NCBI GenBank assembly: GCA_013314755.1
Contig: JABUFA010000023.1
Coordinates: forward strand, 1 to 58,800
Length of the DNA: 58,800 nt
Origin: Chthonomonadia bacterium
GTDB lineage: Bacteria; Armatimonadota; HRBIN16
Reading direction: 5' to 3'
Shown here: one piece after another, positions 1 to 51,305 of the stretch
Layout: each line of letters opens with the position of its first letter
Position numbering within the stretch: position 1 is the first letter of the stretch
Program-made: the position numbers and the translations under genes
Notes under the pieces: generated by a model
What the model was told of the DNA's origin: nothing
The model's database searches: none
What the model saw: the letters and a program-made list of their open reading frames with translations, nothing else

Positions 1-190
1 TCTTCAGCACTCCAAAAGTCAGCCTCCGCAGGAGGCTTTGTCATGGGTAGCCCGCAACTTCCAGTTGCAGGGTTGCCTTCTCACCCCTGTTACTCTGCCC
101 TTGCGATTGGAAATCGCAGGCAACACAGAACAAAACCTGCTGAAGCAGGTTAGGAGTTTGCTGAAGCAAGCTTCAGCACTCCAAAGTTCA
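1..190 (+). repeat. Composite palindromic repeat, locus A
   Basis: This gene-free stretch holds a series of short perfect hairpins. In order they are the tail of module f (CTTCAGCACTCC), module b (GCCTCC-GCA-GGAGGC, about 21-35), module c (GCAACT-TCC-AGTTGC, about 54-68), module d (GCGATT-GGA-AATCGC, about 104-118), module e (AACCTGCT-GA-AGCAGGTT, about 134-151) and a full module f (GCTGAAGC-AA-GCTTCAGC, about 161-178). The linkers between modules, for example ATGGGTAGCCC before c and AGGCAACACAGA after d, recur at the other loci. The same set appears at 28018-28375, 40953-41063, 46740-46990 and 51032-51305. The locus is cut by the window start. Confidence 0.9.
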
Positions 191-28017: not shown

Positions 28018-28375
28018 GACCTTGCGATTGAAAATCGCAGGCTACGCAGAACGAAACCTGCTAGCGCAGGTTAGGGGATGCTGAAGCAAGCTTCAGCACT
28101 CCAAAGAGGTCGCAAGCTTCAAAGAGGTCTGCTGAAGCAAGCTTCAGCACTCCAAAGAGGTCAGCCTCCGCAAGGAGGCTTCGTCATGGGTAGCCCGCAA
28201 CTTCCAGTTGCAGGGGCGTCTCCCCCATTTATCCCAACCTTGCGATTGGAAATCGCAGGCAACACAAAGCGAAACCTGCTCAAGCAGGTTAGACTCCATA
28301 GACATGGAGTGCTGAAGCCATGCTTCAGCGATTCCGCACGTATGGAGTGCTGAAGCCACGCTTCAGCGGTTCAAA
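28018..28375 (+). repeat. Composite palindromic repeat, locus B
   Basis: The longest copy. In order it holds d (GCGATT-GAA-AATCGC), e (AACCTGC-TAGC-GCAGGTT), f twice (GCTGAAGC-AA-GCTTCAGC), b with an enlarged loop (GCCTCC-GCAA-GGAGGC), c (GCAACT-TCC-AGTTGC), d (loop GGA), e (AACCTGCT-CA-AGCAGGTT) and f twice more with three-base loops CAT and CAC. It fills the divergent gap between the large hydrolase-like gene and the membrane protein gene and ends just before the latter's promoter. Confidence 0.9.
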
Positions 28376-40952: not shown

Positions 40953-41063
40953 ACCTTACGACCGGAAATCGCAGGCGTGGAGTGCTGAAGCGGTGATTCT
41001 GTCCTTGCGATTGGAAATCGCAGGCTACCCTTGGCAAAACCTGCTGAAGCAGGTTAGCGGGCT
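40953..41063 (+). repeat. Composite palindromic repeat, locus C (partly decayed)
   Basis: A short copy: a decayed d module (right arm AATCGC kept, left arm changed), a fragment of f (GTGCTGAAGC), an intact d (GCGATT-GGA-AATCGC), the CAGGCTACCC-type linker and an intact e (AACCTGCT-GA-AGCAGGTT). It lies between pyrF and the promoter of the DnaJ-domain gene. Confidence 0.8.
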
Positions 41064-41190: not shown

Positions 41191-42279
41191 TTGACGTACT
41201 CAGAGGCAATGCATATTCTTGGGTTACGTGAAGGTTTCACCCTCGACGATTTAAAGTCCGCCTTTCGCCGGGCAGCGAAACGATATCATCCAGATACCGG
41301 AAGCCCGGAGGCGTCTGCGGAAAAGTTCATTCAGGCAAACAGGGCGTACGATCTGTTGCTGGAATATCTGCGCTCGGGCGGTAGAGATACGGGAACTCCT
41401 GATATAGACCCCCTTTTGCAGGAACGGCTGGATATGGTGATGCGTGCCTTTGAGCATTTGATGAACACACTCGCCTCTCGTTTTGCTCAGATGGGGCAAG
41501 CCATTGTGAACGACGTGGCGCAACAGATAGCGTCCTACGGCAACATAGAGCGCTTGCGTCAGGAGTTCGAAAACGATGCCCGTCGCATTGTCAGCCGTCA
41601 CCTGCGCGATTTCGTGCAGATGGTATACAGCGGATTAGACCAGCTGATTCGGGAGCACGACGCCTGGCTGAACGGATTGTACAATAGTGTTTTCCGACAC
41701 TATCGCAGTCTGGCAATACAACAGGCATGGAAGTCGCCGCTGAACTGGGTGGCAGGAATAGCCCTTTCGCTGGTGGCGTTTCTTTTCCTGCAGAACTTTT
41801 GGCTGACGGAGGGTCTGTTTTTACTGGCTGGATTTGCTGTCGTTCCACATCTGCTCCAGACTGGCTACGCCTGGTGGAAATGGCGCGAAAATCGTTTTCG
41901 GCTACAGGTTAGGATGTCAGACCTTCTGCCACAGCGCGGGTTGTTTGACCCTCAAATTGGTAACGTCGTCTCGCAGCAGGAGGCGGCGGGGATTGGTGGA
42001 ATAGGTGGTGCGGTACTGGGCGGTCTGTTTGCGGGACCGATAGGCGCGATTATCGGAGGTGTGCTTGGTGGGCTATTCGGTTCCCTTTTCGGTGAACCGT
42101 ACCATGTGACCGCACAACGAGTGTTAGAGGCATTTGTGTCGACACTGAACAGCTATCTGCAGACTGTTGCCCAGCAGCTGGGCAACGAACTGCGCACTGC
42201 ATACAATCGGCTGCTTCGCCAGGTTATAGAGAGCTACACTCAATCCAAACAGGGGACGCTCAAGATGCTGCCCCCATAA
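41191..42279 (+). CDS. J-domain membrane protein with glycine zipper
   Basis: A 362-residue protein. A J domain covers residues 1-60 with the HPD motif at 33-35, so it should stimulate an Hsp70 partner. A helical region at 75-165 is followed by two transmembrane segments near 182-220. A glycine-zipper-like stretch (GGIGGAVLGGLFAGPIGAII) lies near 268-295, and an amphipathic C-terminal helix follows. No zinc-finger or substrate-binding domain of classical DnaJ is present, so this is a type III J protein. TTG start with a strong GGGGGGA site. Its end overlaps a minus-strand gene by 20 bases. Confidence 0.75.
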   Translation: MTYSEAMHILGLREGFTLDDLKSAFRRAAKRYHPDTGSPEASAEKFIQANRAYDLLLEYLRSGGRDTGTPDIDPLLQERLDMVMRAFEHLMNTLASRFAQMGQAIVNDVAQQIASYGNIERLRQEFENDARRIVSRHLRDFVQMVYSGLDQLIREHDAWLNGLYNSVFRHYRSLAIQQAWKSPLNWVAGIALSLVAFLFLQNFWLTEGLFLLAGFAVVPHLLQTGYAWWKWRENRFRLQVRMSDLLPQRGLFDPQIGNVVSQQEAAGIGGIGGAVLGGLFAGPIGAIIGGVLGGLFGSLFGEPYHVTAQRVLEAFVSTLNSYLQTVAQQLGNELRTAYNRLLRQVIESYTQSKQGTLKMLPP

Positions 42280-46739: not shown

Positions 46740-46990
46740 TTTCAAGCTTTGGAGTGCTGAAGCTTGCTTCAGCAACCGCTAACCTGCTTTAGCAGGTTTT
46801 ATTCTGTGTTGCCTGCGATTTCTAATCGCAAGGGCAGGTAAAATGCAACCCTGCAACTGGAAGTTGCGGGCTACCCTTGGCGAAGCCTCCTGCGGAGGCT
46901 GGGCTTGGGACGCTGAAGCGTGGCTTCAGCACTCCACAAAGAACTGCCTTGACGCTGAAGCGTGGCTTCAGCACTCCAAAGAACTGCCTT
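46740..46990 (-). repeat. Composite palindromic repeat, locus D
   Basis: The minus-strand copy. Read on the minus strand it runs f, f (loops CAC), b (GCCTCC-GCA-GGAGGC), the GGGTAGCCC linker, c (GCAACT-TCC-AGTTGC), d with loop AGA, the AGGCAACACAGA linker, e (AACCTGCT-AA-AGCAGGTT) and f (loop AA). The order is the same as in loci A and B. It lies between the end of the beta-helix gene and the promoter at 46667. Confidence 0.9.
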
Positions 46991-51031: not shown

Positions 51032-51305
51032 GCATCCCCGCAACTGGAAGTTGCGGGCTTTGGAGTGCTGAAGCTTGCTTCAGCAACCCTAACCTGCTTT
51101 AGCGGGTTTTGCCAAGCGTAGCCTGCGATTTCCAATCGCAAGGTTGCCTTAAAAACACCCCTGCAACTGGAAGTTGCGGGCTACCCATGACAAAGCCTCC
51201 TTGCGGAGGCTGAGTTTGAATCGCTGAAGCATGGCTTCAGCACTCCATAAACCTGCTTTAGCAGGTTTTGTTCTGTGTTGCCTGCGACTTCCAGTCGTTA
51301 GGACA
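51032..51305 (-). repeat. Composite palindromic repeat, locus E
   Basis: A minus-strand copy with several modules twice: d variant GCGACT-TCC-AGTCGT near 51287-51301, e (AACCTGCT-AA-AGCAGGTT), f (loop CAT), b (GCCTCC-GCAA-GGAGGC), c, d (loop GGA), e with one wobble (left arm AACCCGCT on the minus strand), f (loop AA) and c again. It fills the gap between the acetyltransferase and superoxide dismutase genes. The changed d module keeps its pairing by replacing a T-A pair with C-G. Confidence 0.9.

Follow-up and report, generated by a model that had tools for sequence, protein, structure and literature searches.

The window, a stretch of 58,800 nucleotides that makes up the entire contig C80 of a genome of 88 unordered contigs (3.95 Mb), carries five loci of composite repeats: A (1–190), B (28018–28375), C (40953–41063), D (46740–46990) and E (51032–51305). 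All five are intergenic, with loci C, D and E lying downstream of a gene and locus B between divergent genes. An earlier note had described them as assemblies of mini-hairpins, termed b to f, joined by shared linkers in the order f-b-c-d-e-f, reading on the plus strand at loci A, B and C and on the minus strand at D and E, outside genes and away from any transposase. Reading all five loci in full, together with a covariance model and exact matches to f, bore out this description, and no transposase was detected among the nine flanking proteins scanned or as an open reading frame inside the repeats of the window.

Modules of the five loci

The covariance-model search of the window returned 11 strong copies of a two-hairpin unit, composed of hairpins d-e or b-c (63–77 bits, E down to 3e-20), and two weaker copies; all 13 matches fall within the five loci. 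The ten exact f hairpins of the window lie in the same loci, and 100 dinucleotide shuffles contained none. An Rfam scan of the window matched no family.

Locus A comprises a b-c unit on the minus strand (19–72, c′-b′ on minus; R1 74.9 bits), the c hairpin of which has a GTAG foot, a d-e unit on the plus strand (99–153; R1 71.3 bits) and an exact f hairpin with a TT-loop end on the minus strand (160–182). Window positions 1–120 and contig C52:1–127 begin with the same composite stretch, with equal model scores at 19–72. The assembly therefore probably broke inside the repeat and, while the repeats reported for 1–190 are present, locus A is probably truncated by the contig start.

Locus B opens with a d-e unit on the plus strand (28020–28074; R1 71.3 bits), followed by two f hairpins with TT-loop ends on the minus strand (28080–28102 and 28131–28153), a b-c unit on the minus strand (28161–28215; R1 77.0 bits) and a second d-e unit on the plus strand (28238–28292; R1 70.1 bits). 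Two further f hairpins on the plus strand close it, one with a CAT-loop end (28306–28329) and one with a CAC-loop end of the CAT type (28344–28367); all four f hairpins are exact matches. An inverted-repeat finder returned nothing for this locus at the settings used, which is not counter-evidence, the hairpins being plain in the sequence.

Locus C belongs to the family through one d-e unit on the plus strand (41003–41057; R1 67.3 bits), but it is a degenerate single unit, preceded on the same strand by a d remnant and a truncated f (GGAGTGCTGAAGC; 40954–40981; R1 12.7 bits).

At locus D, exact f hairpins with a TT-loop end on the plus strand (46751–46773) and a CAT-type end on the minus strand (46912–46935) bracket one complete f-b-c-d-e-f composite, comprising a d-e unit on the minus strand (46779–46833; R1 63.7 bits) and a b-c unit on the plus strand, which is b-c when read on minus (46849–46902; R1 71.3 bits). 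A second exact CAT-type f hairpin on the minus strand follows (46954–46977).

Locus E holds a composite inside the remnant of another dimer. The host dimer is represented by c′ without b′ on the plus strand (51036–51091; R1 30.3 bits, with the model match extending into f) and by an outer d-e unit on the minus strand (51248–51302; R1 64.7 bits) that abuts the inserted composite. The composite itself is bounded by exact f hairpins with a TT-loop end on the plus strand (51062–51084) and a CAT-loop end on the minus strand (51223–51246), and contains a d-e unit on the minus strand (51089–51143; R1 63.5 bits) and a b-c unit on the plus strand (51159–51213; R1 77.1 bits).

Two kinds of repeat and their order

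The hairpins had been taken to be five different ones, which does not hold for four of them. Alignment of d-e with the reverse complement of b-c gives a score of 16, against a maximum of 7.5 in 5,000 shuffles and −5 for the forward control, and an identity, derived from the score, of 36 of 55 columns, or about two thirds. Hairpins b and e, and likewise c and d, thus belong to two inverted and diverged copies of a single unit, R, which occurs as the inverted dimer d-e/b-c (the slash marking the dimer centre). R consists of hairpin 1 (c or d), approximately 14 bases, and hairpin 2 (b or e). Hairpin 1 has a 9-bp stem with one bulged base and the foot GGCTAC or GGCAAC, read as GTAG or GTTG from the opposite strand, GTAG being the foot characteristic of REPs; the foot of c is nearly always GTAG and that of d is either. 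The genome contains at least 94 R units, and uninterrupted dimers devoid of f are found on contigs C25, C33 and C65.

Base pairing in R was analysed in 33 units from the source genome, congeners and other phyla. In the stems, 95% of cells pair, 8 of the 16 pairs change on both sides (69 double-change cells), and the covariation score is 0.343, as against 0.160 after shuffling. The changes are mostly Watson-Crick swaps, with G-U pairs counted in 8 of 497 paired cells (approximately 1.6%), so few that a DNA palindrome is a better fit than an RNA.

The f hairpin has a GGAG foot and an 8-bp stem, and exists in two end forms, a TT loop after TTTGGAG and a CAT-type loop after TATGGAG, which normally stand in inverted orientation with the tags outward. 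About 166 exact copies (80 + 86) are present genome-wide, with none for the reversed-pattern control, and the composite query gives 124 matches. Pairs of one TT end and one CAT end are also dispersed singly (for example C43:33653–33724, C18:15343–15470 and C47:87141–87268). A search of 60 relatives gave no match to f. It is probably a younger, species-specific REP, the inverted pairs of which form REPINs.

The arrangement of the modules was analysed by tokenizing 68 arrays of the source genome, and the order noted in the window proved to be general. Three successions are almost invariable, namely D>E (94), C>D (50) and B>C (50); C>D and D-E/B-C alternate with regular spacing, and f follows E in 88 cases (E>f) and precedes B, C or D in 97, with only 9 occurrences after C. 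When d-e is read from left to right, the CAT-type f tag stands on the left and the TT-type on the right with about four exceptions, a relation of end type and side that would not arise had f inserted freely and in either orientation at random. The f ends enclose either d-e or b-c-d-e, and occupy the e/b centre of d-e/b-c dimers. With '(' for CAT-type and ')' for TT-type f, '( D E )' and '( B C D E )' stand alone on C18, C47 and C73, f-bounded units also occur with D-E on one side and B-C on the other, for instance 'E ( B C D E ) B C' on C27, and locus E of the window parses as 'D E ( B C D E ) C'. Arrays without clean nesting also exist, such as locus B, 'd e ) ) b c d e ( ('. Most simply, composites bounded by f would have entered R dimers at their centre, interiors of their own kind included, and repeated nesting would produce the cyclic fixed order f-b-c-d-e-f. 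Folded as single-stranded DNA, one composite has z = −7.4 relative to shuffles.

The RAYT gene and the related genomes

The genome encodes one RAYT, which lies away from the window contig (C57:70315–70719). It matches NCBIfam NF047646 with 104.6 bits (cut-off 80), and scores below the cut-offs of Pfam Y1_Tnp (21.3 bits, cut-off 23) and of the IS200 model (12.6 bits, cut-off 55). The only solved relative found is TnpA-REP (4er8; phmmer, 1.8e-6), and the protein has an HYH motif and the segment NYVHYNPVKHG. The gene is flanked on both sides by GGA(G/C)TGCGGAAGC/GCTTCCGC hairpins in alternating orientation, a form confined to the RAYT locus (11 of 11 genomic matches). These hairpins are one compensatory base pair apart from f (GCGGAAGC versus GCTGAAGC), and their pairing of loop type with 5′ flank (TTTGGAG or TATGGAG) is swapped relative to the dispersed f.

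The nearest congener RAYT, at 40% identity (G005), has inverted pairs of GTAGTGC-hairpins on its flanks, so that f has GGAG at the position of GTAG in others. Across this region (G005:C7:109700–110600) the GTAGTGC-tagged hairpins are of several stem sequences; the main form was absent from G005 outside the RAYT locus and shows no dispersal there. No R unit was found beside the RAYT loci examined, including those of relatives. With one RAYT in the genome, the R units are without a resident cognate enzyme. In the case of one tested TnpA-REP, the Stenotrophomonas enzyme, a GTTG foot abolished cleavage (PMC8266576).

Searches of other genomes with the modules separated the two repeats: f had no match in the 60 relatives, but R has at least one match in 26 of the 61 genomes searched, with between 0 and at least 78 matches in each of nine congeners. 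The congener copies inspected are d-e/b-c dimers without f, and their foot is GTTG. Five distant genomes of the phylum (G012, G025, G026, G037 and G058) gave from at least 65 to at least 91 matches to the two-hairpin model, which may belong to separate REP families with the same layout. The exact 26-base form of hairpin c (GTWGCCCGCRACTTCCAGTYGCMGGG) is present in eight bacterial stretches labelled Chloroflexi/Anaerolineae, Candidatus Roseilinea, Myxococcales and Armatimonadetes, and in no viral contig. A second hairpin lies just upstream of hairpin c in these stretches, and one Anaerolineae contig has a dimer resembling d-e/b-c.

Empty sites were found at two loci. Both genes flanking locus E are syntenic in six congeners, where the distance from one aligned part to the other is 43–181 bp, compared with about 430 bp here, and direct reading of the intergenic sequences detected no modules. 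The site syntenic to locus D in one congener is also empty, at about 135 bp compared with about 455 bp here. The repeats at loci D and E were either gained here or lost in the congeners, and gain is the simpler reading because f is absent from all congeners. At locus C, the downstream gene appears to be absent in relatives; a DnaJ-domain gene follows the locus (41191–42279), and the syntenic stretch of the congeners is much shorter and apparently lacks it.

Interpretation and known systems

Membership of the loci in the REP/BIME class is well supported. We consider it likely that they are REP/BIME-type repeats in two layers, f-REPINs having acquired an older REP dimer as their interior and then inserted into other copies of that dimer. 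The first layer would be R, an older genus-wide REP unit in the form of the inverted dimer d-e/b-c, and the second would be f, with inverted pairs and distinct TT-loop and CAT-loop ends acting as REPINs. RAYT would nick and join the hairpins as single-stranded DNA, and f-REPINs with R as interior would spread by copying into intergenic sites that lacked them, some of these at the centre of another R dimer. From these sequences, we infer that the resident RAYT mobilized f and, through f, also R, which is read as an older passenger served by an enzyme that the source genome lacks. Several observations speak against this reading: the RAYT-flank hairpins differ from f by one base pair and have the loop types swapped relative to the 5′ flanks, f has GGAG rather than GTAG, GTTG is common in R although it abolished cleavage by the Stenotrophomonas enzyme, R is absent from the RAYT loci examined, and arrays such as locus B show no clean nesting. 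The suggestion in the earlier note of a mobile element without its enzyme thereby gains support, with the RAYT on C57 of the same genome as the likely enzyme and with syntenic sites that are empty.

An alternative is that alternating BIME arrays expanded in place, through slippage or unequal recombination, and that f is just a third internal REP, with no dispersal of whole f-bounded units. Several arrays do repeat d-e-f-b-c in tandem with constant spacings, and the tandem units on C71 are near-identical. We regard this account as unlikely, given that single f-bounded composites lie isolated at dispersed sites (for example on C73, C18 and C47), that f has two ends told apart by their loop type and orientation, and that the syntenic congener sites hold nothing.

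The sites empty in congeners, and the absence of f from all of them, likewise argue against a structured non-coding RNA, proposed in the earlier note, or an element at transcript ends that stabilizes or terminates mRNA and is kept by selection. The pairing-selected helices, the folding of the composite far better than shuffles and the position of loci C, D and E downstream of a gene would suit such a role; yet G-U pairs make up about 1.6% of paired cells, stem changes are Watson-Crick swaps, both strands keep the palindrome, no Rfam family matched the window, locus B lies between divergent genes, and no consistent T tract follows the hairpins of the five loci. An RNA role therefore appears quite improbable. 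A family of chromosome-organizing or protein-binding sites, with host function rather than mobility accounting for the copy number, seems slightly less probable again. E. coli BIMEs bind gyrase, IHF and Pol I, and palindromes that are intergenic, conserved and present in many copies are what such sites would look like, but the species-specific expansion of f and the empty sites point to recent spread.

Within the two-layer reading, we tentatively propose a self-nesting REPIN, in which a RAYT-served pair with an enzyme-less REP dimer as interior inserts preferentially at the dyad centre of further dimers and thereby generates ordered arrays, while the older unit passes from phylum to phylum as a module of two hairpins; we hold this to be possible rather than probable. 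The genome and its congeners seem to represent successive stages (the older dimer by itself; the dimer together with f), a series that could show how BIME mosaics assemble, from inverted dimer through capture by another REP pair to nesting. The system also shows that a REP unit can endure throughout a phylum when the genome has no RAYT of its kind. No REP/RAYT study in Armatimonadota was found by searches of open-access full texts.

The earlier note knew of no named family like these repeats, but the class is not novel, GTAG-tagged REPs, BIMEs and REPINs having been described (PMC3733652, PMC2817692, PMC3116915); it is the layout that is unusually well ordered and self-nesting. Two other candidates were rejected: an IS200/IS605 insertion sequence would have its own TnpA and the repeats lack a transposase ORF, and no curated Rfam structured RNA matched the window. 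The GTAG-tagged REP superfamily forms inverted dimers, with the tags at the outer (HH) or the inner (TT) side, and palindromes enclose some of its REP dimers (Di Nocera et al. 2013, PMC3733652). The repeats described here share with it extragenic palindromes of 20–40 bp in many copies, as in GTAG REPs and BIMEs, and short hairpins with a foot at one end, inverted dimers, hairpin-bearing spacers, an intergenic location and tens to hundreds of copies. In the terms of that study, c..d is a tags-outside (HH) dimer, and d-e/b-c, whose spacer carries a hairpin, a tags-inside (TT) dimer. They differ from that superfamily in the foot, which stays GTAG in c but is GTTG in many d and in the copies of congeners and GGAG in f, and in the interleaving of two types of REP in a single, fixed cyclic order (PMC3733652).

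As in REPINs, an inverted pair of the same REP, here f, bounds a spacer, would form one long single-stranded DNA hairpin and is scattered extragenically, including as single dispersed pairs, in a genome with a RAYT associated with related hairpins (Bertels and Rainey 2011, PMC3116915). Unlike in described REPINs, the f pair encloses an older REP unit or dimer as its spacer, and the composites nest (PMC3116915). As in a REPtron, the RAYT gene of the genome has inverted REPs on both sides, here one compensatory base pair apart from the dispersed f. With E. coli BIMEs the arrays share two alternating REP sequence types, regular linkers, tandem arrays and fixed-order mosaic modules (PMC8266576, PMC2817692), although the sequence is unrelated, each period comprises five hairpin modules, and a second hairpin lies in the linker. 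The hybrid BIMEs of Stenotrophomonas also combine two REP families in one array, with compensatory stem changes and a RAYT flanked by inverted REPs (Nunvar et al. 2010, PMC2817692); the genome analysed here differs from them in having only one RAYT, and R units without a resident cognate enzyme.
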